From positions 1 through 20,285 of IMG/VR virus record IMGVR_UViG_3300027777_001705: a stretch of DNA of 20,285 nt, one strand, 5' to 3'. A program made the translations under genes and the position numbers. The notes under the pieces were generated by a model. That model did no database searches and was not told where the DNA came from. It saw only the letters and a program-made list of their open reading frames with translations. Positions 4,292 to 20,285 of this stretch are shown piece by piece; positions within the stretch are counted from its first letter, which is position 1; each line of letters starts with the position of its first letter. The DNA comes from a virus.

Positions 4292-5233
4292 ATGGAATTA
4301 AATAAAATATATCAAGAACCTTGCTTAGATACACTTAAACGTATGCCTAATAATTATTTAGATTGCGTTATTACATCACCACCTTATTGGCAATTAAGAG
4401 ATTATGGCTACGATGGACAATGGGGATTAGAACCAACATTTCAAGAATATCTTGAACACCTTTGGGAAATGATGGATGAAATTTGGCGAGTGTTGAAAAA
4501 CGATGGTACGGTTTGGATTAACTTGGGAGATACTTATGGTGGTGGTATTAGTGGACAAGGGGGGAATACAAGTAAACATACAGAAGAAAAAGCAAGTATA
4601 AAAGGAACAAAATTTGAAAGTGGAATTAAAAAACCTTTAAATAAGTGTCTTTTGCTTATACCACACCGTTTTGCTATTGGTTGTATAGATAGAGGTTGGA
4701 TAATAAGAAACGATATAATTTGGGCAAAACGTAATGGGATGCCCGAAAGTACAAAAGATAGATTTAGCAAGAAACACGAGTATTTCTTTTTAATAGTTAA
4801 ATCTGAAAAGTATTTTTTTGATTTAGATGCTATAAGAGATAAACATAATGCTGCTTCTTTAGAAAGATATAAATATGAATTTAGTGGCAATAAATTAGAT
4901 GCAGATAGAGATAAAATTGGTACTCCTAGTGGTATTTTTGAAAATAAAAAAGGCAAAAATCCTGGTTCTGTATCTGATTTTTGGGATATACCAACAAAAC
5001 CATCTTCAAATGAACATTATGCTGCATACAATGATAAATTATTAGAGAAACCAATATTAGCAGGTTGTCCTATTGGTGGCATAGTTTACGACCCATTTAT
5101 GGGAACAGGTAGTACTGCAGAAATTTCTTTACGAACTAATAGAAATTATATTGGAAGCGAAATGAGTATTGAATATTGTAAAATAGCAGAACAAAGACTA
5201 AATCCATACAAACAACAAATTTCATTATTTTAA
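4292..5233 (+). CDS. beta-class DNA methyltransferase (N6-adenine or N4-cytosine)
   Basis: This 313-aa protein is a site-specific DNA amino-methyltransferase. The catalytic motif IV comes first (TSPPYWQLRDYG, S29-P-P-Y32). The AdoMet-binding motif I lies near the C-terminus (YDPFMGTGSTAE, residues 266-277), and between them are the target-recognition region and FFLIVKSEKYFFD. This permuted order (IV before I) defines the beta class. SPPY in place of DPPY is common in N4-cytosine enzymes but also occurs in N6-adenine ones, so the base is left open. It starts 20 nt after ssb. A neighbouring ATG at 4284 opens only a five-codon frame and is not the start. No restriction partner is present, so it is probably an orphan phage enzyme protecting or marking phage DNA, alongside the Mom-like gene at the left edge. 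Confidence 0.92.
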   Translation: MELNKIYQEPCLDTLKRMPNNYLDCVITSPPYWQLRDYGYDGQWGLEPTFQEYLEHLWEMMDEIWRVLKNDGTVWINLGDTYGGGISGQGGNTSKHTEEKASIKGTKFESGIKKPLNKCLLLIPHRFAIGCIDRGWIIRNDIIWAKRNGMPESTKDRFSKKHEYFFLIVKSEKYFFDLDAIRDKHNAASLERYKYEFSGNKLDADRDKIGTPSGIFENKKGKNPGSVSDFWDIPTKPSSNEHYAAYNDKLLEKPILAGCPIGGIVYDPFMGTGSTAEISLRTNRNYIGSEMSIEYCKIAEQRLNPYKQQISLF

Positions 5234-5234
5234 T

Positions 5235-5456
5235 ATGATACACGAATTTAAAACCCCATTAGCAGTTCATACACCACATGGTGAAGGAGAAGCTTATTTA
5301 TTAGTTGACTATGGGTTAAATACAAATAGTGTTTGGATAGTCCGTATAAAAGGTGGAAGAATTAACCATTATTATTCTGATGATATTAGAATTTATGATA
5401 ACCCTATGAATGGAAAAGGATGGGATACTGAAATACCTGAAAATTGGAAAAAATAA
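5235..5456 (+). CDS. conserved small phage protein, function unknown
   Basis: This 73-aa protein starts one base after the methyltransferase stop. Its pattern, THPHGEGEAYLLVDYG-type opening followed by SVWIVRIKGGRI, YYSDDIRIYDNPMNG and GWDTEIP, is one I have seen in small conserved proteins of Bacteroidetes phages. It looks like a compact beta-rich fold, with alternating hydrophobic strands around residues 20-26 and 33-45. No catalytic residues or metal ligands stand out. Position alone links it to DNA metabolism. A role as partner of the methyltransferase is possible but unsupported. Confidence 0.7.
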   Translation: MIHEFKTPLAVHTPHGEGEAYLLVDYGLNTNSVWIVRIKGGRINHYYSDDIRIYDNPMNGKGWDTEIPENWKK

Positions 5457-5474
5457 GAATATAATAAAAAATCA

Positions 5475-5482
5475 TATCTTTA
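5475..5482 (+). promoter_or_regulatory. possible -7 promoter element before the GroES gene
   Basis: TATCTTTA differs from TAnnTTTG at one base and lies 19 nt before the GroES start, almost the spacing seen before the XRE gene. No TTG lies at the expected -33 distance (the nearest, 5444-5446, is 28 nt away), so this is a weak candidate. Confidence 0.25.
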
Positions 5483-5501
5483 TCACCCAAAAACACACAA
5501 T

Positions 5502-5765
5502 ATGAGTTCGTTTAAACCTTTAGGACAAAGAATTTTAGTTGAAGAATTGCCATTAGAAAAGCAAACTGAAAGCGGATTAATTATCCCTGATACAGTTGCT
5601 AAAATATATGCAAAAGGAATTGTAAGGTACAAAAGTGATGAAGTTACTAAGGTAGAAGTAGGAGATAAAATTTTATTCCCTGCTAACATTGGTAACATTA
5701 TTACTCAAGATGGAGTAGATATGAAGTTGATGCTTGTAGAGATGGTTGATGGAATTATTTCTTAG
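5502..5765 (+). CDS. groES: GroES-like co-chaperonin
   Basis: This 87-aa protein has the cpn10 pattern throughout. FKPLGQRILVEEL is the first strand, and EKQTESGLIIPDTVA (19-33) is the mobile loop that docks on GroEL, with its Ile-Ile-Pro hydrophobic anchor. AKGIVRYKSDEV corresponds to the usual 'GEVLAVG' strand, VEVGDKILFPANIG to 'VKVGDxVLF', and MLVEMVDGII closes the barrel. Host GroES is usually about 95 aa, so loops are slightly shortened. It would cap a GroEL ring (not encoded in the window) during folding of phage proteins, as T4 gp31 does. It follows a 45-nt gap that may hold a promoter of its own. Confidence 0.9.
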   Translation: MSSFKPLGQRILVEELPLEKQTESGLIIPDTVAKIYAKGIVRYKSDEVTKVEVGDKILFPANIGNIITQDGVDMKLMLVEMVDGIIS

Positions 5766-5806
5766 TTTAAGATAATTTTCTTAATATTGGGTATAAATTT
5801 TTAGTT

Positions 5807-6007
5807 ATGGCAATGGAAACTTTACCTCCGCAACAAGGAAAACCTTCAATAAAATTTCATAAAGGTGGCTTACATGAGTCACTTGGAGTTGCCGCAGACA
5901 AAAAAATACCTAAAGAAAAAATTCAAGCAGCATTAGCAGGTTCATATGGCGATAAAGCCCAAAAACAAGCACAATTTGCAAAAAATGTATTAGTTGGAAG
6001 TAAGTAA
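5807..6007 (+). CDS. 66-aa conserved phage protein, function unknown
   Basis: This small basic protein runs IKFHKGGLHESLGVAADKKI, then PKEKIQAALAGSYGDKAQKQAQFAKNVL. The GxLHxxLGV...KIP motif followed by a helix ending in 'A.FAKNVL' recurs in short proteins of many tailed phages, often next to structural genes. I know of no established function. It is the last gene before the terminator at 6039, so it ends the first plus-strand block. A second ATG lies two codons in (5813). The upstream one is chosen because it follows the Ala-rich MAMET opening without overlapping anything. Either start leaves the conserved part intact. Confidence 0.7.
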   Translation: MAMETLPPQQGKPSIKFHKGGLHESLGVAADKKIPKEKIQAALAGSYGDKAQKQAQFAKNVLVGSK

Positions 6008-6038
6008 TTTCCCCCCGTAACAAGTTACTTACTAAATT

Positions 6039-6062
6039 GCAGCCCTAACAGGCTGCTTTTTT
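6039..6062 (+). terminator. intrinsic (Rho-independent) terminator
   Basis: A perfect 6-bp stem GCAGCC (6039-6044) / GGCTGC (6051-6056) with a 6-nt loop is followed directly by six T (6057-6062). It is the only strong GC-rich hairpin plus T-run seen in the window. It separates the DNA-metabolism block from the virion block. Confidence 0.88.
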
Positions 6063-6065
6063 ATT

Positions 6066-6097
6066 TTGTTAATTGTCCGAAATATTTAATAAATTCG
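6066..6097 (+). promoter_or_regulatory. possible promoter opening the virion block
   Basis: TTG at 6066-6068, a 21-nt spacer, and TAAATTCG at 6090-6097 match the Bacteroidota consensus with one mismatch in the -7 box. It lies just after the terminator. It would start transcription almost at the ATG at 6106 (8 nt after the box), as in the minus-strand Mom unit. Confidence 0.4.
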
Positions 6098-6105
6098 TGG
6101 TTAAT

Positions 6106-6936
6106 ATGACTAATACCAATATAAAAGCAGTAAATAGTGTTCTTTTAAAACTAAAAGAACCTGTTAAAACTGTGATTGAAACCGAAAGCGGATTTAAACT
6201 AGAACTTGCAGGAAACTTTAACATCGAATGGAATGTAACCGTACAAGGTGTTATAGAGTCATTACCAAAAAATAGCCCATACTTGGGTGAAATAAAAAAA
6301 GGAGACGAGGTTTGTTTTTCTTATTTTATTGTAAATGACAGAAGTTTTGATACTGATGTAGATATGTTTAATCCATCAATTGAAAGCAATTATATGCAGC
6401 AGTTTATTGATGGCAGGGGTGCTAGGATTAATATTATAGCAGTACCGGGAATTATAACCAAAAAATGGGTTTGTTCTTACATCGATGAAAATGGAAACTT
6501 TGTTCATGGCTTTGAGGGAACAGAATCAGAAATGGAAAGATGGAAGTCTCAGTATAAATTTGGTAGTGTACAAAGATTTAAGTTTGAAAATTTAATAGAT
6601 TATAATTCTGAACACTATTGGAGATGTGACAACCAATTTTTATTTGCTAAGATAGTGGATGGTAAACTTGTTTCACTTGGAGACAGAGTAATTTTAACTC
6701 CCATAGACATAGATGTTCCTAAAGAAACATTGACTGCAATGGGTATTAAAATACCTGATACTTCAGTTCAGGCAAGGCTTTCAGATAGGGCTATGGTTTA
6801 TTCAGGTGGCGAAAGAATGGGGATTAAGCAAGGAGATACGGTAGGGTTTGACCCAAGATTTGTAGAAAAATATGAATTCAATAATAAACAATACTTTTTA
6901 CTTAGAGAAGATAGAGTTCTAGGTACTTGGAATTAA
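6106..6936 (+). CDS. probable tandem GroES-like (double cpn10) protein
   Basis: This 276-aa protein reads as two GroES-like barrels in one chain. Half one has SVLLKL (11-16), ESGFKL (27-32, mobile-loop position), VTVQGVIESL (44-53), IKKGDEVCFSYF (63-74) and, after an insertion of about 90 residues, HYWRCDNQFLFAKI (170-183). Half two has LGDRVILTPI (191-200), GIKIPD (213-218), RAMVYSGG (228-235), IKQGDTVGFDP (240-250) and KQYFLLREDRVLGTW (261-275). Each line matches a cpn10 strand in order. A role as a specialised GroEL cap or virion-folding factor is inference. The start is taken as ATG 6106. A TTG at 6073 would add 11 residues but begins only 11 nt after the terminator T-run and inside the candidate promoter. 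The gene stands first in the virion block. Confidence 0.68.
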   Translation: MTNTNIKAVNSVLLKLKEPVKTVIETESGFKLELAGNFNIEWNVTVQGVIESLPKNSPYLGEIKKGDEVCFSYFIVNDRSFDTDVDMFNPSIESNYMQQFIDGRGARINIIAVPGIITKKWVCSYIDENGNFVHGFEGTESEMERWKSQYKFGSVQRFKFENLIDYNSEHYWRCDNQFLFAKIVDGKLVSLGDRVILTPIDIDVPKETLTAMGIKIPDTSVQARLSDRAMVYSGGERMGIKQGDTVGFDPRFVEKYEFNNKQYFLLREDRVLGTWN

Positions 6937-6947
6937 AAATTAATATT

Positions 6948-7442
6948 ATGGCAGTAAAATTATTATTAAATGCAAACATGAAAAAGTGGTTGCAAAAATC
7001 AATAGAAAGCGAATTATACGCATCAAATTTGTATAAGCATTTAGCTAATCAACTTCAAAGATTAGGACTATTTGGTACTCAAGCATTTTTCTTAAATGAA
7101 AGTGCTGATGAATTAAAGCATTATCAAATTATTGTTGAATTTATCAATGATATGGGGGATGTAGCAAGTATGCCAAAGGTTGATGCTTGTGCAGATAAGG
7201 TTACTTGTATTGGTGATGCATTAGATATTGCCTATGAAACCGAATATGATTTGTTAGAACACTACAAAGAGTTTTATGACATGGCAGAAGAAGATGATTG
7301 TATTGTTGGGCAATTCTTATTGCAATTTATTGAAATTCAAAGAAAATCAGTTGGTGATTATGGTGATTTGTTATCTAAATATGAAATAGCTAAAGAAAAC
7401 AAAGAAATACTATTTTTCGACAAACAAATAGGTAAAATCTAA
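6948..7442 (+). CDS. ferritin (non-haem iron storage type)
   Basis: This 164-aa protein aligns by eye with bacterial ferritin FtnA along its whole length. Helix A has ESELYASNLY (E22 as ligand), helix B ESADELKHYQ (E55 and H58, the ExxH pair), helix C YETEYDLLEHYK (E97 and E99) and helix D QFIEIQRKSV (E129 and Q131). The tail EILFFDKQIG resembles the ferritin C-terminal 'LYFIDKEL'. The ferroxidase ligands are therefore present. Such proteins oxidise Fe(II) and store the mineral in a 24-subunit shell. The ATG at 6948 is preferred over a TTG at 6927 that overlaps the previous gene. The gene lies 11 nt after the double-GroES gene and its stop is only 3 nt before the first ring protein, so it is co-expressed with virion genes. 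Confidence 0.85.
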   Translation: MAVKLLLNANMKKWLQKSIESELYASNLYKHLANQLQRLGLFGTQAFFLNESADELKHYQIIVEFINDMGDVASMPKVDACADKVTCIGDALDIAYETEYDLLEHYKEFYDMAEEDDCIVGQFLLQFIEIQRKSVGDYGDLLSKYEIAKENKEILFFDKQIGKI

Positions 7443-7445
7443 GAT

Positions 7446-8123
7446 ATGGGATGGAATATAAATACTATTTATAATTTTTTAAATTATATGGTTAGGAAGG
7501 AAAGAGGTGCTTTTATCTCTCCTGAAGAAGCATCTACTGCCCTAGATAGTGCGCAAATGGAATTATATGAAGGGTATTTTAAAATTTATGGTATTAACCA
7601 ACAGGTACACGATAGCCTTTCTCCATTTAAAGTTAGATTGCAATTTACATCTGCATCTAATGGTATAGTTACACAACCTAATGATTATCAACATTTATTA
7701 GGTGGTGTTTTTACAGTTTCAGGAAGTACAATTTGCCCATTAAGATTTATAAGCGAAGACGAATTACCTGATGCGCTTACAAATCAATTAAGACCCGTTA
7801 ATATAAATAGTCCTGTTGCTTTAGATACACCTAATGGTTTTCAAATATATCCACAAGTAACACAAATAGGATTTTATACTTATATGCGCAGACCTGCAGT
7901 ACCAATTTTAGGGTATGTTCCGCAAGCACCGGGCAGTAGAACATTAGTATATAATCCAACACAATATAATGCTATAACAAATCCAACAGGAAGCCAACAA
8001 ATAGAATTTTTAGATGCTTATATTAATAATATTATGGCTAGGGCATTAAAGTTCTTAGGTGTAAACATGGATGAACAAAGTATCGTAGCATTTGCAGAAT
8101 CACAAACTCAACAAACAGTATAA
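7446..8123 (+). CDS. head-tail connector/ring-type virion protein
   Basis: This 225-aa protein opens MGWNINTIYNFLNYMVRKER with a helical N-terminal region, then 'ISPEEASTALDSAQMELYEG'. It continues with a beta-rich centre (VTQPNDYQHLLGGVF; CPLRFISEDELPDALTNQLR; GFQIYPQVTQIGFYTYMRRP) and a C-terminal helix (EFLDAYINNIMARALKFLGV). This layout and the three-gene series after it resemble the ring/connector proteins between portal and tail in short-tailed Bacteroidetes phages, including crAss-like ones. Its stop overlaps the next start (TAATG). Family assignment is by overall look and position. No active-site motif is expected or seen. Confidence 0.6.
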   Translation: MGWNINTIYNFLNYMVRKERGAFISPEEASTALDSAQMELYEGYFKIYGINQQVHDSLSPFKVRLQFTSASNGIVTQPNDYQHLLGGVFTVSGSTICPLRFISEDELPDALTNQLRPVNINSPVALDTPNGFQIYPQVTQIGFYTYMRRPAVPILGYVPQAPGSRTLVYNPTQYNAITNPTGSQQIEFLDAYINNIMARALKFLGVNMDEQSIVAFAESQTQQTV

Positions 8124-8758
8124 TGCCAAATATAACTAAGAGATTATTATCCGACCAACTGTTATTTAAATTAGATGGCAGTTTTCCTGAAGTATCTATG
8201 GCTGTCCAAAAGCAAGATGTTTGGAAAGCAATAGAACAATGGATTAATTCAAAGTTTAAGTTAAAGCACTTTCAAGAAACACTTCCAACGGGTGAAACAA
8301 TTCCTGAAGGCGCATCATTAGCAACTTACACAAGTATAGCAGTTACCGCAGCAGGTAATAAGTCTATTTGTACTTTGCCTGTTATGCCAATATCATTACC
8401 TAGAAATATGGGTGTTTATGATATTAATGATGGTAATGGTTATAGTTTTATTCCTCTTCAAAAAGGACAAATAAATCTTTTAGGACAAGAGTTTTTAGCA
8501 AATACTTTATTAGGACAAATATGCTATGAAATAGCAGGCAGAAATGTAACATTTTCGCAAGACATTACTTTATTGAAAATGGATACAGTAAATATGGACT
8601 TAATGGTATTTGATATGTCTAAATATAGTGAAACCGATATATTGCCATTACCATCTGATATGGAACAACAATTATTAGATGATTTATATAAGATGTTTGC
8701 GCCAATTCAACCTGAACCTGCAACTGTTAGCAACTATCCTGTAAATTTACAAAAATAA
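8123..8758 (+). CDS. ring-type virion structural protein
   Basis: This 211-aa protein has MPNITKRLLSDQLLFKLDG, a helical segment (VWKAIEQWINSKFKLKHFQE), then a beta-rich part with PTGETIPEGASLATYTSI and CTLPVMPISLPRNMGVYDIN. The 'LPVMPI-LPRNMGV' string is one I associate with structural proteins of Bacteroidetes phages encoded between the head-tail genes and the muzzle gene. The C-terminal part (LPSDMEQQLLDDLYKMF) is helical. It is coupled to the preceding gene by the TAATG overlap and followed after 4 nt by a third ring-type gene. The structural role is well supported by context. Its exact slot in the tail is not. Confidence 0.6.
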   Translation: MPNITKRLLSDQLLFKLDGSFPEVSMAVQKQDVWKAIEQWINSKFKLKHFQETLPTGETIPEGASLATYTSIAVTAAGNKSICTLPVMPISLPRNMGVYDINDGNGYSFIPLQKGQINLLGQEFLANTLLGQICYEIAGRNVTFSQDITLLKMDTVNMDLMVFDMSKYSETDILPLPSDMEQQLLDDLYKMFAPIQPEPATVSNYPVNLQK

Positions 8759-8762
8759 TAAA

Positions 8763-9542
8763 ATGACAGCTACATCGTTAGATTCAATAGTAAGAACAGC
8801 ATTGATGAAAAAAGGTTACCCTTTACATCAATACGTTCAGTTTTTAATATATGCAAGAGAATGCTTGCAAGAACTTACAATGGATGATTTAAAAATATTT
8901 AATACAAAATTACTTCCCATAGATGCGTTTAATGCAATTGAATTGCCTAATGATTATCAAGATTATGTAATGGTAGGTGTTATGTCAAATCAAGGTATTA
9001 GACCTTTAGTAGAAAGTAGAAGATTAAATGTATTAAATAATTATAATACAGACTTAGAACAAGTTAAATGGACTTCTGATAACCAAACAGATACTCAAAA
9101 TCAAAGTTTGCTTTATTATGGGGCATTCCCTTATTCACAATGGTATACGGTAAGATATAATGCTTATGGTGAAAATTTAGGTCGTTCATATGGTTCTAGA
9201 AGTGGATATGCAGATACATTTATAGTAGTAAAAGAAAGAAATCAAATACAACTTAATGAGAAAATGGGTGGAATTGATTATATCTACTTACAATATATGT
9301 CAGATGGTAGTGATAGTGGAAGTGCAACAATGATTGACCCGTATGCACAAATGACTATTCAAACATATTGCAATTGGATGCATAAAGAAAATAATAGAAC
9401 TTATAATGAAGGTGAAAGGGCTAGAGCAAAACAAGAATACATTCAACAAAGACAAATAATGAGGGCTAGAAAATCAGACCTTACATTACCTACACTTAAA
9501 CGAATTATTCAACGTACCTCTATTGCTTCTCCTAAAAATTAA
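8763..9542 (+). CDS. ring/tail-tube-type virion protein (T7 gp11-like position)
   Basis: This 259-aa protein has an N-terminal helical region (SLDSIVRTALMKKGYPLHQY, then FLIYARECLQELTMDDL), the 'ELPNDYQDYVMVGVMSNQGIRPL' segment, and a C-terminal helix (YAQMTIQTYCNWMHKENNRTYN) ending in EYIQQRQIMRARKSDLTLPT and SPKN. The order 'helices, P-DY-DYV-VG, long terminal helix with Arg-rich end' is that of gatekeeper/ring proteins of short-tailed phages (T7 gp11-like; crAss ring proteins). A glycine/tyrosine/serine-rich loop (GENLGRSYGSRSGYAD) lies in the middle. It precedes the large muzzle-type gene by 11 nt, matching its expected location in the tail. Confidence 0.6.
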   Translation: MTATSLDSIVRTALMKKGYPLHQYVQFLIYARECLQELTMDDLKIFNTKLLPIDAFNAIELPNDYQDYVMVGVMSNQGIRPLVESRRLNVLNNYNTDLEQVKWTSDNQTDTQNQSLLYYGAFPYSQWYTVRYNAYGENLGRSYGSRSGYADTFIVVKERNQIQLNEKMGGIDYIYLQYMSDGSDSGSATMIDPYAQMTIQTYCNWMHKENNRTYNEGERARAKQEYIQQRQIMRARKSDLTLPTLKRIIQRTSIASPKN

Positions 9543-9553
9543 TATAAGAACAA

Positions 9554-12500
9554 ATGGTAACTCAAAAACAGGTAAGGTTAGCAGGGATGAACTCAGACGA
9601 TAACTTAGAGTTATTAGCTGAAGGCGATTATTTGAATTTAATGAATGGCAGAATTGGTTTTAGTGAATATGGTAAGTCATTAAGAATAGAAAACATCCCC
9701 GGAACAACTGCCCTTACTAATAATAAATATCCTCCTTATGGAACAAATAAATGTATTGGTAGTTGCATAGATATTGAAGGGCAAAGACTAATATGGTTTA
9801 TTTATAATACCTCAAACGACCACGGAATTTATTGTTATGATTTTAGAGACAAGCAAATCTATGCGGTATTGTATGATACTCAAATAATAGATACTTACAA
9901 TTCAGGATTAGGTTTTGATAAAGATTTTAGAATAGATAGAAACTGTAAGGTTGACCAAGGATTACTTTATTGGACAGATAATAAAAATGAACCTAAGAAA
10001 ATTAATATTGACTCAGGTATAAAACTAAATCAACCTTCTTACGTTACAAAAGCAAGGGCTTACACTACATTACAAGATTCATATGAGATAACTGTAATTC
10101 GCAGACCTCCTACATATGCACCTGTAATAGAAAAAAAATATAAATCAACTTATGCCAATAACTTTATAAGCAAGCATTCTTGGCAATTTTCTTGGCAGTA
10201 TATTTACTTTGATGGGGAAATATCTGTATTAGGAGAATATAGTCGTGCATCAATGCTTAATTTAGTTTATATAGTTTCAGGAACAGTTACTGCAGAAAAT
10301 TATAATTATATTCAATGCGATTTGCCATTAGCAGAAAAAATACCACAAACAGCTAGAATTATTAGGTTAATTGCTAAAAATCAAGATACAGGTGTTGCTA
10401 GTGTTGTAAAAACATTTGACAAACTTATAAGTGAAGCACCTTTTATTGCACATAACGCAGGAACAAATAAACTTACATTTGATTATTATGGGGATTTAAT
10501 TGGTGAAACAATTGATGCAGCAGATACTGTAAAACCATACGATTCAGTTCCATTATTATCAAAAACGGCAGAAACAGCAGTTAATAGGTTATTTTTAGGT
10601 AATAACTTATCGGGTTATGATACACCTACAAAAACTTCTTTGTCTGTATCACAAATACTAGCAAACTCTAGTACTTATCATAGATTTTTTAAAGCTGAAT
10701 CATCTTATCAAGTAGGTATTGTATTTTATGACAAAGCAAGGAGAAAATGTGGAGTAACTACATTAAATGATGGTTTATTTACAACAGATAAAAAAACATA
10801 TCCTGCTGCATCAGATTGTACTTTTTGGGATGTAACTATTCAACAAGCAGATATAAATGATGCAACAGGAAATACAAACGGTAAAGATGGTATAGTATAT
10901 GTAAATTATACAAGTTGTCAAGGTTCATCAACTTTGTTACAATATACATTTGCTGATACATTTTATAATCAACTTTGTTTACACCCTGCAGATGTAATGT
11001 CAATTCAATTGTCATATTTTAAAAATGACATTCAAATGTTAGCTATTTCTACTGCTACAAATAATAGTATTTCATGTGATAATGGAGGTTTGACACAAAC
11101 ATATACAGTTAATTGGCAATTAAGCAATGCAAACCCATCATTAGAAATACCTATTTGGGCATATTATTATTCAATAGTTAGAACAAAAAATTTAAAGACA
11201 AGATACTTTATAGATTCTTTAAGTAATGACAATAAATATGCTACTAAAGTAATTACGGCAGGCGTAGTTACTTATAATTATAGTCCAACATTTGCAACAG
11301 GTGCAATTTATTTAGCTATTGATACAACACCATTAATAAATTCAGGTTTAGGTTATGTATACAACGAAGGAGATATGTGTGTATTACTTCGTTCAACAGG
11401 AGGTAAAAGATATGAAGTACCTGTAGTTGGAACTGATGGAATTTATATTTTGGTTAGTTTAACAAATCAATTTAATATTGATAATGCTAGTTTATCAGGT
11501 ACTTACTTTACTTATGAAATTTATACTCCTTATACAAGAAGTGAAAATGAACCTTATTATGAAGTAGGTAATATTTATCCTGTAACAAACCCAACTCTTT
11601 CAAATAGACAGTATTCTACCCTTACAGGAAGTTTAATAGGAGATATTTTTGCATTTCAAAGACTTTATATAGGCACTTATTATTGGGTAGAGGCAATGTC
11701 GCCAAGTGACTTATTTTATCAAAATTGGTTTACAGATGGTGGTTTTATAAATTTTGTTACTTTATTGGGGCAAACTCAAAATAACCATGAAATAAGGTAC
11801 TCTAATGTATTTACCCCCGGTACAAGTAATAACGGACTTAGCACATTTGAAGCCCTAAATTTCAAGACTGTTCCACTAGGTACAGGTAATATACAAAAGT
11901 TACAATTAGCTTCTAAAACAGAGGAACAGGGGGTAATAATGCTATCTATTGATGCATTCCAAACTGTATCATGTTACTTAGGTGAAGTTCAGGTAATTGG
12001 TTCTTCAAAAAATGCATTCTTGGCACAAGATTCTGCCGTAATAGGAACAATGAATGTGCTAAAAGGAATGTATGGTACAACTCATCCTGAAACAGTAATA
12101 GAATACTTAGGTAATGTATTTTGGTATGATTTGAATAATGGCGCAATAGTTCAATATAGTGCAAATGGATTATACCCTGTTAGTTCATTTAAAATGGTTA
12201 ATTTCTTTAGTAATTATGCTAAAGATTATACAAATACAAGTTCTGCTACTCTTGATTCGCTTAATGGGTTTCATCATATACCAACAGCAATAAATCCATT
12301 TACAAAAAGATTTCAAGTAACAACACCTGCATTAATAGCAACAAATACTGCAGCCGTACTACCTAGTTATGATGGAGTAACACCTGATTATGCTAGTTCT
12401 ATTATTAATAGGTTCAATCCATATACTAAATTATCGCAAACAGTATGTCTTGATATCATAGAAAATAGATGGAAAGAAGTATTTGAATACGCAGGAGAAT

Positions 12501-12979
12501 GGTATGATTATTTTGAAAATCAAATGATTGGTTTTAAAAATGGTGCAATATATACTCACGAAACAAATACAACCAATTTAAATACATTCTACGGAACTCA
12601 GTATCCTATTAGATATTGCCTTACCCCTAACCAACCATTATCATCAATAAAAGATGTAGTTGGAATAACAGTAGAAGGAAGTGTAATACCTGATTATTCT
12701 GTATGCTATAGTGTATACCCTTGGGAACAAATAACAGATTTAATAAATGAAGATTTTAGAAACCAAGAAGGGGTAATGTACTCATCATTATTTAGGGATA
12801 GACTTTCTCCAAACACAACAGGAACAGCAATTAATAAATTATATTACGGAGACATAGTTAAATCAAAAACACCATTAATTATGGTAGAGTTCCAACAATA
12901 TACTAACTTAGTGTATATTTCATTTATTGATATAGATTTTGCAGAAAGTTATGGTCAAACCAAAATATTAACAAAATAA
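9554..12979 (+). CDS. tail muzzle/stabilisation-type protein
   Basis: This 1141-aa protein is the largest complete one in the window. Its N-terminus (VRLAGMNSDDNLELLAEGDY, LNGRIGF-like segment, IENIPGTTAL, GTNKCIGSCIDIEGQRLIWF) and the string LLYWTDNKNEPKKINID near residues 138-153 are the marks of the large tail proteins called stabilisation or muzzle proteins in crAss-like and related phages. Repeated beta-strand units there form a propeller-like tube at the tail tip. The middle is rich in Tyr/Thr/Asn beta strands without membrane segments. The C-terminus (YTNLVYISFIDIDFAESYGQ) is also beta. By analogy with T7 gp12 it would seal the tail channel until ejection. Its stop overlaps the next start (TAATG), coupling it to the cupin-like gene. 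Confidence 0.72.
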   Translation: MVTQKQVRLAGMNSDDNLELLAEGDYLNLMNGRIGFSEYGKSLRIENIPGTTALTNNKYPPYGTNKCIGSCIDIEGQRLIWFIYNTSNDHGIYCYDFRDKQIYAVLYDTQIIDTYNSGLGFDKDFRIDRNCKVDQGLLYWTDNKNEPKKINIDSGIKLNQPSYVTKARAYTTLQDSYEITVIRRPPTYAPVIEKKYKSTYANNFISKHSWQFSWQYIYFDGEISVLGEYSRASMLNLVYIVSGTVTAENYNYIQCDLPLAEKIPQTARIIRLIAKNQDTGVASVVKTFDKLISEAPFIAHNAGTNKLTFDYYGDLIGETIDAADTVKPYDSVPLLSKTAETAVNRLFLGNNLSGYDTPTKTSLSVSQILANSSTYHRFFKAESSYQVGIVFYDKARRKCGVTTLNDGLFTTDKKTYPAASDCTFWDVTIQQADINDATGNTNGKDGIVYVNYTSCQGSSTLLQYTFADTFYNQLCLHPADVMSIQLSYFKNDIQMLAISTATNNSISCDNGGLTQTYTVNWQLSNANPSLEIPIWAYYYSIVRTKNLKTRYFIDSLSNDNKYATKVITAGVVTYNYSPTFATGAIYLAIDTTPLINSGLGYVYNEGDMCVLLRSTGGKRYEVPVVGTDGIYILVSLTNQFNIDNASLSGTYFTYEIYTPYTRSENEPYYEVGNIYPVTNPTLSNRQYSTLTGSLIGDIFAFQRLYIGTYYWVEAMSPSDLFYQNWFTDGGFINFVTLLGQTQNNHEIRYSNVFTPGTSNNGLSTFEALNFKTVPLGTGNIQKLQLASKTEEQGVIMLSIDAFQTVSCYLGEVQVIGSSKNAFLAQDSAVIGTMNVLKGMYGTTHPETVIEYLGNVFWYDLNNGAIVQYSANGLYPVSSFKMVNFFSNYAKDYTNTSSATLDSLNGFHHIPTAINPFTKRFQVTTPALIATNTAAVLPSYDGVTPDYASSIINRFNPYTKLSQTVCLDIIENRWKEVFEYAGEWYDYFENQMIGFKNGAIYTHETNTTNLNTFYGTQYPIRYCLTPNQPLSSIKDVVGITVEGSVIPDYSVCYSVYPWEQITDLINEDFRNQEGVMYSSLFRDRLSPNTTGTAINKLYYGDIVKSKTPLIMVEFQQYTNLVYISFIDIDFAESYGQTKILTK

Positions 12980-13452
12980 TGGTAAATAGCATTATACATA
13001 GGGTAAATGACGATAGAATTGACGAGTTAGAATCGACAATGGTAAATAATTTCCCACCCGTAGAATGTCCATTAATACATAGGTTTACCAAAGGAATGTA
13101 TATAAGAGAAATATTTATGCCTAAAGATTCTCTAATAACATCTAAAATACACAATACTAACCATCCTTTTGTCGTTTCACAAGGCACAGTAGCAGTAGCA
13201 ATAGATGGAGATAATTGGCAAGAAATACAAGCACCATATACAGGAATAACACAAGCAGGAACTAGAAGAGTATTAATTATACTTGAAGATACAACTTGGA
13301 TTACATTTCATCCATTGCCTTATATAACAGGTGATGAAAATGAATTTAGTGATGATGAAAAGTTAAAATTAGTAGAGAAAATAGAAGATGAAATATTAAG
13401 CAAATACGAAAATTTGCTTTTATATAAAGAACAAGATTTATTAAAAGATTAA
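12979..13452 (+). CDS. cupin-like phage protein of the tail region
   Basis: This 157-aa protein has a single beta-barrel with the pattern PLIHRFTKGMYIREIFMPKD, SLITSKIHNTNHPFVVSQGT, APYTGITQAGTRRVLIILED and TTWITFHP. I know this arrangement (hydrophobic strands, K-I-H-x-x-x-H, then T-x-W-x-T-F-H-P) from cupin-fold proteins encoded beside tail genes in many phages. H58, H62, E103 and H111 could form a metal site. The substrate, if it is an enzyme, is unknown, and a structural or receptor-related role is equally possible. A glutamate-rich C-terminal helix (residues 120-155) follows the barrel. It overlaps the muzzle-type gene by one base and precedes the ejection-type gene by 11 nt. Confidence 0.68.
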   Translation: MVNSIIHRVNDDRIDELESTMVNNFPPVECPLIHRFTKGMYIREIFMPKDSLITSKIHNTNHPFVVSQGTVAVAIDGDNWQEIQAPYTGITQAGTRRVLIILEDTTWITFHPLPYITGDENEFSDDEKLKLVEKIEDEILSKYENLLLYKEQDLLKD

Positions 13453-13463
13453 AATAAAATATC

Positions 13464-14096
13464 ATGAGTTTCGTAGCCATTGGAGCAGGATTAGGAGCAG
13501 CATCAGCAGGGTATAAATTATACTCAGGAATTAAACAAGTTGGACAAGCCAATAAAATAAATCCCGTATATACCCCATATACAGCTTCTAATGCAGTAAA
13601 ACAACAATTAGGAACTGTACAAAATGCGTATCAAGGTAGAATGGCAGGCGCAGTATCTGCATCAGATAGAATACTTCAATCACAAGCTAATACATTAGCA
13701 AATGCATCAAGAGGTGCTACAGATGCTTCTCAATTACTTGCATTAGGTGCTTCTACAGAAGGTACTGCAGACCAAGCATCAGTTGATTTAGCAGCTAGAG
13801 AAGGACAAAATAAAGCAGGTATTTTAGATAATCTACAAAATGCTTATAATAAAATGACTGAAGATGAAAGACAGGTATATCAATCAAAACTTCAGAAATA
13901 TCAAATGGATACACAAGCTAAACAAGCACTAGGACAAGCAGGTATGAGTAATATATATGGTGCAGGAAGTGACTTAGCAGGTATGGCATTACAAGGTGCG
14001 CAATTAGGAAATGTAGGAAGTTTTAAGTCAGGTTTTGGCGCAGCAAATAAAGTTGCAGGCGCAGGCAAACAACTTGGACAATTAATAGGCGGTTAA
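13464..14096 (+). CDS. internal virion/ejection protein (T7 gp14-like)
   Basis: This 210-aa protein is rich in Ala, Gly and Gln. It opens with a hydrophobic Gly/Ala stretch (MSFVAIGAGLGAASAGYKLY) able to enter a membrane. It continues as long amphipathic helices (VKQQLGTVQNAYQGRMAGAV; AREGQNKAGILDNLQNAYNK) and closes with a Gly-rich tail (GAANKVAGAGKQLGQLIGG). Size, composition and position match the smallest internal virion proteins of T7-type phages, which leave the capsid first and form a pore in the outer membrane for DNA entry. There is no catalytic motif. The assignment rests on composition, order (followed by two larger cargo-like genes) and context rather than on a recognisable sequence motif. 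Confidence 0.6.
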   Translation: MSFVAIGAGLGAASAGYKLYSGIKQVGQANKINPVYTPYTASNAVKQQLGTVQNAYQGRMAGAVSASDRILQSQANTLANASRGATDASQLLALGASTEGTADQASVDLAAREGQNKAGILDNLQNAYNKMTEDERQVYQSKLQKYQMDTQAKQALGQAGMSNIYGAGSDLAGMALQGAQLGNVGSFKSGFGAANKVAGAGKQLGQLIGG

Positions 14097-14120
14097 TAAT
14101 AAAATACAAATAGTAATAAA

Positions 14121-15713
14121 ATGGCAGATGATACTCAAGGTTACGCAACAGTGTTGCCAAATCAATTTCCAAGTCCGGGGCAAGCACTTCAAGGTTTAAT
14201 TCAATCTAAAGAAAGACAGCAAGAAAAACAAGCTGCTTTAGATGAAAGACAACAAGAACAAAAGCAGAAAATAGCTGCTGCCCAACAAGAACGCACTAGA
14301 CAAAATGAATTATATAATTTAGCTGCCCTAAATAAACAAACAGAAGCAAAACAATACGAAACTGCTGATGAACAGGTTAATAATTTAACTAGAAAAACAT
14401 TAGCAGATATATATAACGAAGGAATAAAAGGAACAAGATTAGACCCAATGGAATTTGAGCAAATGCTAAAAGGAAAATTAGGTGATTTAGTTCAATGGAA
14501 TGGAAATGTTAAAGACCAATTGAGGACTATAGGAACACAAAGAGCAGATTTTTTTAAAGTACTTCCAAATACAGACCAAACAGGAGTAGATAGAAGAGTA
14601 ACAAAAGATTTTTTACAAAATGTCGCAAATTTAGATGAAAACGGAAATATAATATCAATTAAACCATTAAATCAAATCAAACCAAATGTAAATTATTTTG
14701 GTGCATTTGCAGACCCTAAAGTTTTAGCAGGTGTAACTAATGATACTACACCATTGCCTGAATTTTTTGCTAAAATACCTAAAGAAAAAACATCTGAAAG
14801 TCATTTTAAAAATTTATCAGGTAATATTGATTCTAGAGGATATAATGCTATGGTTACTCCTCATTCTGAAATGTATACAAACGAATCAGGTAAAGTAGCA
14901 GTAAGACCTAAATCTGAAGTTGCAATGGTTACTGATAATGGAGAACCTATAAGAGTAGCTTCAGAAGAACTTAAAAATTCAATGGCAGGAAATCCAAAAG
15001 TAGAAGCTGCATTCAATAAACAATGGCAAGATTATGTACAACAACATAATTTAGAAGCTGCTACTAATCAAGACCCACACGCACTTGATGTTTTAAAAGA
15101 AAATTATAGATATAAATTAGCAGAGCAATATTTACCACATCAAGTTAATCCAATTGAGAAACAAGTAACTCCTACAATTGTCAATAAATTAAGTATAGAA
15201 AATAGGCATAAAGAAGATGTAATAGATGATAATGCAGGAACTTTAAAATCTCATTTAGAAAATGCATTTACAAATAATCCTGTAACATTTAGGTTGCCTA
15301 TAAAAGGAGGAGGAACAGGAACTCAAACATGGGGTAATTTAGGACATTCAGATATAACAACTCCATTTACTATAAAAGTAGAGGAAAAAGAACAAGATAA
15401 ACAAACAATAACTAAAGTAGTTTCTTTTGATGATTACTTTGTATCTCCTGATAATAAAATATATGGTGTTTATTATAAAAGAACACCAACAGGAGAAATA
15501 TCAGATGATGTTAAACAAAAACAAGAAATACCATTAGAAAGATATGCTGAAAGATTATTTGAAAAATCTACACCACAAAAGTATAGGGCAGAAGTAGTTA
15601 AAAATAATGTAAATGAAGTATTAGGTGTAACTGAAAAACCTAAAACAAAAACAACTACTAAAGTAGCTACAAAAAAAGACAATAAAAATACAAAAACAGG
15701 AGAATTAGACTAA
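14121..15713 (+). CDS. internal virion/cargo protein with N-terminal coiled coil
   Basis: Residues about 27-75 of this 530-aa protein form a Gln/Glu/Lys-rich helix (SKERQQEKQAALDERQQEQK and onward) of strong coiled-coil character. A mixed region follows with ADIYNEGIKGTRLDPMEFEQ, KVEAAFNKQWQDYVQQHN and a beta-rich C-terminal section containing a Gly-rich turn (IKGGGTGTQTWGNLGH). The last 30 residues are a Lys/Thr-rich disordered tail. There are no membrane spans and no catalytic motif I recognise. Lying between the T7 gp14-like protein and the giant polyvalent frame, it fits the second internal (gp15-like) component of an ejection apparatus. Function is inferred from location and build only. 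Confidence 0.55.
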   Translation: MADDTQGYATVLPNQFPSPGQALQGLIQSKERQQEKQAALDERQQEQKQKIAAAQQERTRQNELYNLAALNKQTEAKQYETADEQVNNLTRKTLADIYNEGIKGTRLDPMEFEQMLKGKLGDLVQWNGNVKDQLRTIGTQRADFFKVLPNTDQTGVDRRVTKDFLQNVANLDENGNIISIKPLNQIKPNVNYFGAFADPKVLAGVTNDTTPLPEFFAKIPKEKTSESHFKNLSGNIDSRGYNAMVTPHSEMYTNESGKVAVRPKSEVAMVTDNGEPIRVASEELKNSMAGNPKVEAAFNKQWQDYVQQHNLEAATNQDPHALDVLKENYRYKLAEQYLPHQVNPIEKQVTPTIVNKLSIENRHKEDVIDDNAGTLKSHLENAFTNNPVTFRLPIKGGGTGTQTWGNLGHSDITTPFTIKVEEKEQDKQTITKVVSFDDYFVSPDNKIYGVYYKRTPTGEISDDVKQKQEIPLERYAERLFEKSTPQKYRAEVVKNNVNEVLGVTEKPKTKTTTKVATKKDNKNTKTGELD

Positions 15714-15715
15714 TA

Positions 15716-18700
15716 ATGGCAGAAGAATCAGTTCAACCCGAAGTTCAAGATGTTAATCAAGAAGCACCTAAAACAGGTGAAATTGATAAATTATTTAATG
15801 TAGTTTCAAGTAAAGGATTATATACTAAGTCTAAAGATGAATTTATTCAAAAGTATAGTACACCTGAAAGTGTAGATAAATTATTTCAAGTTGTTTCAGA
15901 TAAAGGATTATATACAAAATCTAAAGGAGATTTTTATTCTAAATATTATCCAAATTTATCATCACAAAAAAATACAGAACAAGTTGGAGGATTAACAGCA
16001 TATAGTGATTCAAGACAAAAAACAATACCTACAGAAGAAATTAAAAGACCTTCAAAACTAACAGACTATACAAGTGCGCCATTAGAAATGGTTTCTAAAG
16101 CAAAAGCAACTGAAGTTTCTAGAAAACCATCTACACAACCTGTTAGAAAAATAGCAACAGAAGAAAAAGCAGCAGCAGAAGGAACAAGTACTAATTTACA
16201 ATTACCAACAACATTAAAGGGTGGACAATTTGGAATAGTTGCAGAACCACAACAAGAAGGAGAATTACAACAAAAATTACAAAAAAGGGAAGATGATAAA
16301 CAAACTGCAATAAAAAATTCTCTTTTAAATCAAGGAATAAAACCTAATACACAACAATATTTACAAAAAGAAAGAGATTTAAATAATCAATTATCTAATG
16401 ATAATTTAGTTGTAGATAAAGATAATAGTGGAGAACCAAAATTATTTAGAAGTGAAGGGTTTGCGGAAACATTAGGTAAAACAATTTACAATAGTTTTAA
16501 AGCACCTATAGATGCATATGATGTAAATAAAATAAGCGACCCGAATCAGTTTGTTCAAAAAATGAATGAACAAACAGAAGAAGAATCATCTAAACCATCT
16601 AAAATATTGGGTAGTGGGGCTGAATTAATAGGGGGTGTAGTTAAACCTATATCATTATTAGCATTAAATGCTGTAGCAGGTGGAATGGGAACTACTGCTA
16701 TGGTAGCTGAAGCATATTATAGTGCATTAGCAAATGAAAAAAGAAAATTATATATAGCAGGAAAACAACAAGGATTAAGTGATGTAGATGCTGCAAAAAA
16801 AGCAATGGATGTTGCTACATATACGGCATTACCTGATGCTGCTATGGCTTTTGTAATGTCAGGTGAATTAGGAAATTTACCTAAGACAGTACCTGCAGTA
16901 GCAGATAATACATTTAAAAATGCATTAATAAAATCAGGTAAAAGTGTATTAAAAATTGCAGCATTAGGTGGTGCATCTGAAATAGGTAAAATAGGTGTTG
17001 AATCATTAGGAGGATATAAGGAAACACTTCCAAATGCTATTGGTAGAGTTTGGGGAAGTACAGCAGAGTGGGGTAAAATGGATTTAGGATTTAGAATTAT
17101 AGGAGGAATAATTCCTGCAGCAGGTTATTTAAAAGCAGCAGCTAAGAATTGGTTAAAAAATGTACCCGAAGAACTAATACAATTAAAATCAGAGCAATAT
17201 GGTGATGCAGGAGAAAAAATAAAACAATCAATAGCAGATTATAAAAATGCTGCATCTAATGTAGAAGGATATGTACCTGATGAACATTTAGCATCATTTG
17301 CAGGTAAAATAGAAAAATCAAATAAACTACAAGACGATATAACACAAAAACAATTAGATAAAATAGGCAAACCTGAATTTGTTCAAAATAAAATAGATGA
17401 AGAAATATCAGATATTCAAAAGCAAATAGATGGTATAAATAAAGAAGTAAATACAGCAGCTAAAAAAGGAGTAGAACCAAAAGAAATAGATGATGCAACA
17501 GGTATTGAAGCAGGTGTAGAACCTAAAATAAATGTAGAACCTATTAAAACTGAAACTAAACTTGAAAAACAAGCCCCTGAAGTACAGCAGCCCACAGAAA
17601 CTCAAAAGCCTACAGTTGAAGCAATTACTGAAGTTAAGCCAACAACAGAAAAAACAGAAACTAAAACAATAGAAGAAGTAACTCCTGTAGTTGAAGAAGT
17701 TAAACCTACAATAGCAAAAGAAGAAGTTAAACCTGTCAAAGAAGTTTACGATAGAAATGATACTCCAATTAATATAGATGATATTGGAGAAGGATTTGTA
17801 TTGCATAGAGGAGGTCAAGAAGTTTTAGATAAAGGATTTCATTCAATAGATAAAATTGGTGCAGAAGGATATGCAGGCGATGAGGGTAAAACGACATCTT
17901 CTACAATTAAAAAAGATGCAAAAATATTAAAATTAGTAAGTGGCGATAGTGAAAACTATTCTGACAATGCAAAAGATATTGATGAATTTTATAGGATAAT
18001 CGGAGAAAAGGAAAGAAAAAAAGGTTCTGAATGGGCTACAGGAGAAAATCCATCTGATATCACAACAAGGCTTTGGGATAATAAATCTGCCCAAGAAAAA
18101 TTAAAAAAAGCAGGAGTTGATATTGTAATTGGAAATACAATAGACGGAGTAGATGCCTTTGTAGTAAATAAAGATGCACTAGAGCCAATATCAAAACCTA
18201 AATCAGAAACACCTAAAGAACAAGTAAATGCAGTAGCTAAAAATAAAACTAAAAAAGTAAAGGATAATGATAATGAGCAAGTAATAGAAACTGTAAAAAG
18301 CCTATTACAAGTTATAAAATCGGCAGAAGCTAGATTAAGCGAATACCCAAAAGAAGCATCAATGCAAATAAATGAAGCTATTGGGCTATTGAAACCATTT
18401 TTAGATTTATTACCTGAATCAGAAAAGAAAAGCCAATTAAAACAACTTACGGGTACATACCCACAATTAGAAGGTGCTAAAGAACAATTAAAACCAAAAG
18501 AAGAAAAAACAACAGCAGATACAGTACATGATGATTTATTAACTCATTTAGGAATAATAGAAGAACCTAAAGGTGAAACAAAACCTGCTAAAAAATATAC
18601 TTCTAAAAATATAGATACAATAACAGAAGAAGGATTAAATGACACACAAAAGAAAGTAGTTAAAGATGTTAAAAATGTAGTTAAAGCTGTTTCTAAATTA

Positions 18701-20285
18701 GTAGAAAAAACTACAGGAAACCCATTAGAAGTAAACATACACGAAACACCATCTAGTTATGAAAAAGCAGTAATAGATGCAGGTGGAACAAAACAAGATT
18801 CTACTACAAAAGGATTTTATTTAGATGCTGATGGAACTATCCATCTAAACATGGAAAGAGTTACTACAGATACTATGCTTCATGAAGGGTTTCATCCTGT
18901 TTTAGATTATATGGCTAAAAATAGACCTGATATAATTGACAACCTACATAGTCAATTAGAAGGTTTAAAAGGTGGTAAAGAAGTCATAGATAACGCAAAC
19001 AAACTTTATGAAGGTTCAGATGCAACAACTATAAAAAAAGAAGCAATTACTGATTTTATAGCAAAAGTAGCAGATGGAACAATTAAAATAGATAAAACAA
19101 ATTTTCAAAAAGTAAAAGACTTTTTTGTAAATGCTGTAAATAAGTTAGGATTTGAATTAGGAAAAGATATAAATACTATTACTGACCTTAAAAAATTAGC
19201 AGAATTAGTTTCTGAGAAATTTAATAAAGGAGAAGAGATAAAAGTAATGCAGAAAAATTTTATCCAAATAGATAATAGAGGTGAGTCAGGAGATGCTATA
19301 GGAGGTGGTAAATTAACTGCATCTGATATATCTAAAGCAAAAGTAGGGGATACAAATCCATTACAGTTATCAAAAAATGAAGAAAAAGAGGATAAATTTA
19401 AAGAAGTAAATTTAGTAAAACTACCTGTAGTTTCTCTTGAAGAAAAAGCAAAAGAATTTAATAATAAAGCAGTAGCAATAAATTCAGACCCAACAAAAGT
19501 TGGAAAATTAACATTGGAATCAGGAAAAGAAATTTTCATGTATGGTGGATTGAATTATACAGCATTAGAGCCAAATGTAAAAAATGAAATAGGGTTTGCA
19601 TCAACTAATTTAGGTAAACCAAAGCAAGTTCAAGGGTTAATGAAATCATTATTTCCTGAAAGGGATGGTAGCGGTTTAATATTGACTACATCTCAAAAAC
19701 CTGAAAGTATGCTTGGGAATGCTTATTCATTAGAATATACATTAGATGCAATATCTAAATTGCCTAAAAGTATTTTAAAATCATCAGAATTTAAAAATGA
19801 ATTTTTTGGAAAAGATATTGTTGCAGTTAAAGATGCATTTGGAGAAAAAGAATACGATGCGTTTGTTAATAAATACAGTAAATCTGATTTAGGAAATCCT
19901 GATGTTATTGCTGATATGATTAAAAATTTGCTAACAGATATTGGGAATAATTTTGTTGCAAGAAATAGCCTTGTTGATAATATGTTGGCAGGGATTACAT
20001 CAAAAGAAAGTAGAGCAGATACAAAGGGCGAACTTGGGTATGTATCAAAAGACCCTAAAAAATATATTGCTAAAAATCTTTTTGATAGATTTGGATTAAA
20101 CCAAGAAGCCTTATTTTACAAAATAGGTGAGAAAGGAATTGTAGATGCTTATATGAAAGAAGGTAAGTGGGGATTTGTAACAGGTGGATTTGAATCAGAC
20201 TCAAAAGTAGACTATAATAGCATACAAGAAAAAGGTATCATTCATCCTCAATTTAATTCTAAATTTCATGGTAAAAATCCATTTA
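15716..20285 (+). CDS. giant polyvalent protein with ADP-ribosyltransferase-like and zincin peptidase domains (3' end beyond window)
   Basis: I read this frame codon by codon: it is open from ATG 15716 to the window edge, 1523 codons, with no stop. Parts in order are as follows. Two 30-residue-period repeats span residues 23-77. A hydrophobic Gly/Ala helix region (about 300-480) may touch membrane. A K/E/P/V-rich linker covers about 586-677. A probable ART-like domain (about 690-830) starts FVLHRGG and ends AGVDIVIGNTIDGVDAFVVN. A metallopeptidase domain centres on TMLHEGFHPVLD, with H1056, E1057 and H1060 as the HExxH motif and E1109 in KKEAITDF as probable third ligand. A further domain (about 1250-1500) contains MYGGLNYTAL and MLGNAYSLEYTL, which I cannot name. 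Such combinations are known as polyvalent proteins, delivered with phage DNA to act on host targets. It starts 2 nt after the previous gene. Confidence 0.8.
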   Translation, partial: MAEESVQPEVQDVNQEAPKTGEIDKLFNVVSSKGLYTKSKDEFIQKYSTPESVDKLFQVVSDKGLYTKSKGDFYSKYYPNLSSQKNTEQVGGLTAYSDSRQKTIPTEEIKRPSKLTDYTSAPLEMVSKAKATEVSRKPSTQPVRKIATEEKAAAEGTSTNLQLPTTLKGGQFGIVAEPQQEGELQQKLQKREDDKQTAIKNSLLNQGIKPNTQQYLQKERDLNNQLSNDNLVVDKDNSGEPKLFRSEGFAETLGKTIYNSFKAPIDAYDVNKISDPNQFVQKMNEQTEEESSKPSKILGSGAELIGGVVKPISLLALNAVAGGMGTTAMVAEAYYSALANEKRKLYIAGKQQGLSDVDAAKKAMDVATYTALPDAAMAFVMSGELGNLPKTVPAVADNTFKNALIKSGKSVLKIAALGGASEIGKIGVESLGGYKETLPNAIGRVWGSTAEWGKMDLGFRIIGGIIPAAGYLKAAAKNWLKNVPEELIQLKSEQYGDAGEKIKQSIADYKNAASNVEGYVPDEHLASFAGKIEKSNKLQDDITQKQLDKIGKPEFVQNKIDEEISDIQKQIDGINKEVNTAAKKGVEPKEIDDATGIEAGVEPKINVEPIKTETKLEKQAPEVQQPTETQKPTVEAITEVKPTTEKTETKTIEEVTPVVEEVKPTIAKEEVKPVKEVYDRNDTPINIDDIGEGFVLHRGGQEVLDKGFHSIDKIGAEGYAGDEGKTTSSTIKKDAKILKLVSGDSENYSDNAKDIDEFYRIIGEKERKKGSEWATGENPSDITTRLWDNKSAQEKLKKAGVDIVIGNTIDGVDAFVVNKDALEPISKPKSETPKEQVNAVAKNKTKKVKDNDNEQVIETVKSLLQVIKSAEARLSEYPKEASMQINEAIGLLKPFLDLLPESEKKSQLKQLTGTYPQLEGAKEQLKPKEEKTTADTVHDDLLTHLGIIEEPKGETKPAKKYTSKNIDTITEEGLNDTQKKVVKDVKNVVKAVSKLVEKTTGNPLEVNIHETPSSYEKAVIDAGGTKQDSTTKGFYLDADGTIHLNMERVTTDTMLHEGFHPVLDYMAKNRPDIIDNLHSQLEGLKGGKEVIDNANKLYEGSDATTIKKEAITDFIAKVADGTIKIDKTNFQKVKDFFVNAVNKLGFELGKDINTITDLKKLAELVSEKFNKGEEIKVMQKNFIQIDNRGESGDAIGGGKLTASDISKAKVGDTNPLQLSKNEEKEDKFKEVNLVKLPVVSLEEKAKEFNNKAVAINSDPTKVGKLTLESGKEIFMYGGLNYTALEPNVKNEIGFASTNLGKPKQVQGLMKSLFPERDGSGLILTTSQKPESMLGNAYSLEYTLDAISKLPKSILKSSEFKNEFFGKDIVAVKDAFGEKEYDAFVNKYSKSDLGNPDVIADMIKNLLTDIGNNFVARNSLVDNMLAGITSKESRADTKGELGYVSKDPKKYIAKNLFDRFGLNQEALFYKIGEKGIVDAYMKEGKWGFVTGGFESDSKVDYNSIQEKGIIHPQFNSKFHGKNPF
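15782..15946 (+). repeat. two tandem 30-residue-period repeats at the N-terminus of the giant protein
   Basis: Residues 23-47 (IDKLFNVVSSKGLYTKSKDE...Y) and 53-77 (VDKLFQVVSDKGLYTKSKGD...Y) repeat with a 30-residue period. DKLF, VVS and KGLYTKSK are identical in both. The DNA copies differ mostly at third positions, so the repeat is kept at protein level. Short 'SKxY...F' repeats of this sort occur at the N-termini of large virion cargo proteins in Bacteroidetes phages and may be a packaging or docking tag. Confidence 0.75.

Follow-up and report, generated by a model that had tools for sequence, protein, structure and literature searches.

The window analysed here is a 20.3-kb phage fragment, and the record from which it is taken, a 20,285-base IMG/VR virus record, ends at the same point. 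Its plus strand carries genes for three head/tail completion proteins (225, 211 and 259 aa; 7446..9542), two of which are assigned to phrog_14543 and phrog_13977, followed by a nozzle/tail-tip-like virion protein of 1,141 aa (9554..12979; phrog_14478, E=5e-47, and an alignment with six families) and a short tail fibre/adhesin-like protein of 157 aa (12979..13452; phrog_12032, E=8e-26). Two putative ejection proteins come next on the same strand. The first, of 210 aa (13464..14096), is called gp14-like from synteny and from a match to PF24072 T7_gp14 that lies below the cut-off (E=0.002; 18.5 bits against a cut-off of 27), and the second, of 530 aa (14121..15713), is called gp15-like from its position, size and synteny. 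The remainder of the window is occupied by the gene of a giant virion/ejection protein (15716..20284, plus strand), of which 1,523 codons are visible and the 3′ end lies beyond the window; an earlier reading of the letters alone (hereafter the sequence-only reading) had correctly described a frame of more than 1523 codons that is open at the window edge. The window phage has a short tail and is a relative of phages that infect Flavobacteria. Upstream of these genes, two GroES-like-looking proteins are encoded in the one phage (5502-5765 and 6073-6936), and the 287-aa GroES-like protein matches co-chaperonin GroES families (phrog_13932, E=7.5e-9).

The same phage is found in two further IMG/VR contigs, G001 (72,427 bases, locus L003) and G002 (21,735 bases, locus L002), and both encode a complete giant of 3,073 aa. 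Downstream of it, both contigs carry a 190-aa gene and then a 690-aa gene, which we take to be the large terminase from the appearance of its sequence. Window positions 417-19247 are about 100% identical to G001 (18.8 kb), and the one amino-acid difference that we noticed falls in the 259-aa protein. The sequence of the giant past the window edge is known only from these two sister contigs, which diverge from the window after residue ~1169. The sequence-only reading had asked for the DNA beyond position 20285; the sister contigs supply the full protein, but in a version that has by then departed from the window's own. At its left end, too, the window differs from G001: the two part at base 417, and positions 1-416 contain a 139-aa minus-strand frame. 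The two ends of G001 (L016:153-2831 and L018:12597-15275) carry the same genes in inverted order, as either a terminal inverted duplication or an assembly palindrome. Its terminase-to-portal interval (L017:518-6905) holds about eight genes resembling glycosyltransferases, methyltransferases and a sugar epimerase.

These genes are arranged as in the ejection cassette of podoviruses, which runs from the nozzle through the gp14-like and gp15-like genes to the giant and on to the terminase, with the giant as third and largest gene of the cassette: in the window phage, gp14-like, gp15-like and large third gene stand in this order behind the tail genes, and the giant is encoded beside late virion genes. 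The order of nozzle, gp14-like, gp15-like and giant is common to the window, elemoviruses, Cellulophaga phages phi38:1 and phi18:3, Manatee Spring phage, Maribacter phage Panino and IMG/VR contigs. For phi18:3, the record of the syntenic giant (gp123) names it a virion structural protein, ‘based on experimental MS/MS proteomics analysis’. Since the giants of phi18:3 and phi38:1 have no HExxH motif, this virion evidence covers the gene position and not the zincin domain described below. In loci L037-L042 the nozzle is 61-64% identical to that of the window, and a BLASTP comparison at E<=1e-4 gives no match between the first 1,500-1,800 residues of their giant and the giant of the window.

The conserved gene order, the MS/MS record of phi18:3 and the parallels with crAss001 and T7/P22 make an ejected cargo protein the most likely role. 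We consider it probable, with good confidence, that the giant is a polyvalent cargo protein, the third of the ejection cassette, which is loaded into the virion and ejected together with its enzymatic modules. Its way out would be the short tail, shared with the gp14-like and gp15-like proteins, and it would deliver its enzymatic modules to the host as infection starts; the step from virion into host cell is a prediction, as is the peptidase activity. Several points count against the cargo reading: the giant has no significant Pfam or PHROG match, the T7_gp14 match of its neighbour falls below the curated cut-off, its own hydrophobic stretches are marginal, the curated MPTase-PolyVal and ART-PolyVal profiles do not match it, no PDB fold match is significant, and the virion evidence from phi18:3 concerns the gene position.

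The name giant polyvalent protein, given in the sequence-only reading, finds support in the size, the architecture, the zincin and the position beside virion genes. With regard to the several unrelated domains that define such proteins, a zincin and an exchangeable module are supported within the 3,073 aa, and the ART-like part lacks a profile match. Searches of the giant against Pfam, PHROG and PDB sequences returned nothing above cut-off, and the 3,073-aa protein has no Pfam match to an RNA polymerase domain. A match to HFX_2341_N was set aside as weak (E=0.003, under the curated cut-off). The hydrophobic region that had been proposed comes down to one stretch of 19 aa (16625..16681, plus strand; aa 304-322), which is marginal with a mean hydropathy of 1.64. 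The proposed ART-like domain is kept as a candidate at 17765..18190 (plus strand; aa 684-825, with HRG at 697, Y719 and the D813 region). Its HRG...Y...D pattern plausibly resembles the H-Y-D ARTs of polyvalent proteins, and a 62%-identical counterpart in L028/L029 retains HRG, a Tyr and GVDAF(V/I)VNKD, but there is no profile match to Pfam ART-PolyVal PF18760 at E<=10. The L029 giant (L029:1875-10121) is 2,749 aa long with no HExxH seen, and it also shows what look like a GNAT-like segment, a ParB-like one and a second ART-like one.

Better defined is the zincin-like metallopeptidase domain, which is placed at 18599..19210 (plus strand; aa 962-1165) from homology, conserved residues and a predicted model. 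It contains the HEGFH catalytic motif (18881..18895, plus strand; aa 1056-1060), a candidate third zinc ligand, E1109 (19040..19042, plus strand), and a conserved His, H1043 (18842..18844, plus strand), which ends core strand 2 in the model. H1043, H1056, E1057, H1060 and E1109 are invariant across six sequences, of which five are relatives at 31-35% identity to the first, so that both HExxH and the downstream Glu are conserved in divergent relatives. These five residues correspond to the features given for phage-type polyvalent MPTases by Iyer et al. 2017 (PMC5512222), namely a His in strand 2, HExxH and, in the next helix, a Glu. An AlphaFold model of the sister protein's zincin (identical to the window's) and the module that follows it, built from six sequences, has a mean pLDDT of 64.6, with 75-87 over the zincin core, and the predicted elements follow the zincin-type order. 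In a PDB fold search with the zincin model the best matches were weak and none was significant (the collagenase G peptidase domain at E=0.066, and also selecase). In a viral structure library an elemoC structural protein ranked first, and several proteins named for the Large polyvalent protein associated domain (LPD) ranked below it. The zincin and module are homologous to the elemovirus ‘structural protein’ (E=7e-74, 31% over 636 aa). Because the curated Pfam profile MPTase-PolyVal PF18818 does not match at E<=10, we use the term zincin-like for the domain and leave it outside that family. For the peptidase that the sequence-only reading saw in HEGFH and E1109, support comes from the five invariant residues and from the predicted fold; a metal-dependent zincin peptidase is the best supported of the enzymatic modules that the giant would deliver, with peptidase activity predicted.

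This zincin may either process the giant itself or act in the host. Self-processing and cleavage of host proteins, the two roles offered in the sequence-only reading, are also the two proposed for this class by Iyer et al. 2017 (PMC5512222). In the first case, as has been proposed for P1 DdrB, the zincin would cleave the giant, or else other proteins of the head, while the particle is assembled, and the mature virion would hold fragments, a reading that we regard as possible and somewhat doubtful. P1 DdrB is processed before packaging, with autoproteolysis suggested by Iyer et al. (PMC5512222), and the window's zincin is located mid-chain with other modules on both sides. On the other hand, the same paper has the zincin-bearing N4 vRNAP packaged unprocessed, and the lack of HExxH in the syntenic phi18:3 and phi38:1 giants means that processing by a zincin is not general for this gene position. 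In the second case the zincin, and the ART-like part if real, would act on host proteins after entry, and the turnover of modules would reflect an arms race. Our confidence in this reading stops just short of an even balance: modules by the zincin are swapped between phages that are otherwise ~100% (window and G001) or ~90% (L037 and L039) identical, and the related L029 giant shares the ART-like part and has no HExxH, but fast module turnover would also be expected from drift or from co-variation with virion partners.

In the window, identity with the sister contigs stops abruptly at base 19224 (residue ~1169-1170), some 20 more bases are similar, and the sequence is then different throughout (breakpoint 19223..19246, plus strand, by comparison with G001); beyond this point L002 and L003 agree with each other. 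The exchanged module of the window (19247..20284, plus strand; aa 1178-1523) is joined in frame, directly after the zincin. The module that it replaces, as present in L003, recurs at 36-40% identity in five other phages, with a more distant copy in Manatee Spring phage. For the window's module, scans of viral and genome contigs yielded no relative, and residues ~1178-1523 have no family match in Pfam or PHROG. Aligned with a profile of the replaced module, it falls in register with z=2.3, and with a wider profile z is 3.0-7.4, dependent on gap cost; its local HMM score against the A5 profile is not above shuffles. Because of that shuffle-level score, and of a z that varies with profile and gap costs, we regard homology as probable only: the window's module is probably a far-diverged form of the one found behind the zincin in relatives, acquired through a recent swap. 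The C-terminal region from about residue 1250 had been said to belong to no nameable family, which agrees with the libraries, although the weak in-register similarity suggests a link with the post-zincin module of relatives. A single-sequence model of the module was discarded (pLDDT 32).

A further possible source of the breakpoint is the assembly itself, in that the last kilobase of the window could be a metagenome join of two phages and no real variant. Both window ends (1-416 and 19247-20285) depart from G001 and the 18.8 kb between them are ~100% identical, as would be the case for a contig ending at strain branch points, and two independent sister contigs agree past the breakpoint. We nevertheless think a join unlikely, as it is in frame, keeps 345 codons open and falls right after the zincin, and as the new part is weakly similar, in register, to the module it replaces. 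A similar mid-gene replacement also occurs elsewhere: between the giants of L037 and L039, identity is 89% in residues 200-900 and drops to 23% in residues 900-1500. In L039/L040 the module (E=1e-27) sits before HExxH and not behind it, which marks it as a mobile unit. A swap beside the peptidase, in genomes that are ~100% identical over 18.8 kb, means that payload turnover outpaces nearly all else in the virion module.

At its other end, the giant starts with a doubled tag. Copy 1 (15782..15856, plus strand; aa 23-47) reads IDKLFNVVSSKGLYTKSKDEFIQKY and copy 2 (15872..15946, plus strand; aa 53-77) reads VDKLFQVVSDKGLYTKSKGDFYSKY; tags of this type, related to the window's, also occur in L067 and L116. 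The repeat scores 95, against at most 42 in 73 other 85-aa windows of the full protein, which confirms the N-terminal repeats noted in the sequence-only reading. What that reading did not see is that repeats of this kind recur at the N-terminus of proteins encoded at this position, where they can be exchanged. By the same test, the N-terminal window scores best in the giants of phi38:1, Manatee Spring, L022, L023, L024 and L025, and second-best in L029, and eight of the nine highest N-terminal repeat scores among 138 ORFs of >=200 aa from reference and sister loci belong to giants. For an unbiased survey, 80 loci were fetched by a nozzle alignment scan that was blind to the giant. Of the 18 giants whose start was usable, 13 have an N-terminal repeat that beats every other window, with a modest score in two of these (L056, L100), and the top 15 repeat scores of the 507 ORFs in these loci are starts of the gene at the giant position, with one exception, a collagen-like protein. 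A clear doubled tag at the start is absent by the same test from the elemovirus giant, the Panino giant and crAss001 gp47, and the tag is therefore not universal.

Most giants examined start with a doubled tag, and at least 10 tag sequence types were found among them. The tags have many unrelated sequences, are always short and are usually followed by a Lys run. One class consists of short linear tags (DEFGIPxKK, NPFAEFGG, IPTPDEVFG, LPxGFTLDE, KVPSMDEVLG, F[ND]PxxYL, WKPPTDA, KPWExYS and GPxFPTGR), and a second consists of ~30-residue tags with units such as LYTKSKxxFxxKY, as in the window. No tag motif that was tested recurs elsewhere within its locus. A tblastn search of phages with the window tag found nothing; one with the L025 tag found Pachyviridae tags. 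A literature search, with most subscription journals outside its reach, returned no N-terminal tandem repeats in ejection proteins. In Cellulophaga phages phi18:3 (L010:17310-17640), phi19:3 (L030:6486-6810) and phi46:3 (L031:6986-7310) the doubled tag lies in a separate ORF of ~102 aa; its frame breaks at nine or ten consecutive A, from where the other frame leads on into the giant, which reflects either a homopolymer error shared by the three records or a programmed frameshift.

Such repeats could in principle be attributed to chance or to slippage duplication without function. Tag length and sequence do vary widely, and the three giants without a clear doubled tag fit that explanation, which we nonetheless find very improbable in view of the lead of the N-terminal repeat in 13 of 18 giants from the nozzle scan and of two further observations. 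First, tag copies inside one protein often differ at synonymous sites, and in L106, over 10 codons, the two copies differ at 6 sites that are synonymous and at 0 that are non-synonymous; differences that are synonymous only indicate that the tag peptide is kept under constraint. Second, a DNA pattern search of 2.9 million viral contigs in IMG/VR found DEFGIPxKK in 16 stretches, in all 16 within the first ~32 residues of the visible frame. It is doubled in 15 of 15 with a complete N-terminus, the second copy being slightly changed in four, and frames that start with it run to 3,353 aa, many being cut by the locus end.

Whole tags are also exchanged on nearly constant proteins. Behind the tag, the L039 and L040 giants are 95-99% identical, and the doubled tag is IPTPDEVFG in one and LPxGFTLDE in the other; the L106 and L109 giants are 97% identical over 657 residues, with DEFGIPIKK twice in one and F[DN]P[ND]xYL twice in the other. 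Pairs with the same tag have gp15/gp14-like identities of 93/92%, 88/82% and 69/85% (one pair overlaps), and pairs with different tags 75/76, 53/59, 56/57 and 61/56%. Where tags differ, the gp14/gp15-like neighbours are, in these few pairs, more diverged than the nozzle and the giant backbone. This is suggestive of co-variation between tag type and the gp14/gp15-like partners, across few pairs of which one same-tag pair overlaps. Within the ejection set, the tag at residues 23-77 may provide docking or an address, and we propose that it serves loading or ejection addressing; T4-type capsid targeting sequences serve here as an analogy only. As a tentative and wider proposal, many giants of Bacteroidota-type podoviruses might carry a doubled address tag that is exchanged as a cassette on a constant protein along with gp14/gp15-like divergence, and that would set cargo loading or the place in the conduit, the two copies providing avidity. 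If true, a position-specific doubled tag would make the selection, loading and ordering of very large cargo in podoviruses directly testable, and could flag unknown cargo proteins in metagenomes.

Several known systems resemble the giant in part. Polyvalent proteins with MPTase and LPD domains, as described in PMC5512222, are likewise very large, multidomain and encoded near virion genes, and their MPTases share HExxH, the downstream Glu and the strand-2 His. The window giant differs in that the curated MPTase-PolyVal and ART-PolyVal profiles do not match it, and its doubled, exchangeable N-terminal tag is not described in the accessible text of that paper. The T7/P22 ejection cassettes, with gp14-gp15-gp16 order and mosaic domains (PMC8954989), also have three genes with the largest last and rapid mosaic divergence of the third protein; the window giant is 2-3 times larger than that protein, with no gp15/gp16 sequence match and no lysozyme domain seen. 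In crAss001 the cargo proteins gp45, gp46 and gp47 lie behind the muzzle gp44, and cargo is present in the virion (PMC10172136). This Bacteroidota-type phage has the same order behind a nozzle-type protein and a giant cargo, and is likened to the window phage by gene order, not sequence; unlike the window giant, its gp47 shows no doubled N-terminal tag in the repeat test. The N4 virion RNA polymerase, an ejected protein of ~3,500 residues that is delivered with two further ejection proteins (PMC12633501), is also very large and has an HExxH domain, whereas no RNA polymerase domain was found in the window giant. The elemovirus giant of Flavobacterium phages (L004:2-11002) differs in its DUF3293 domain (PF11697, E=1e-12), in having no clear doubled tag and in the rest of the protein, which is not alignable, but it shares with the window giant a homologous zincin and module within the same gene order.
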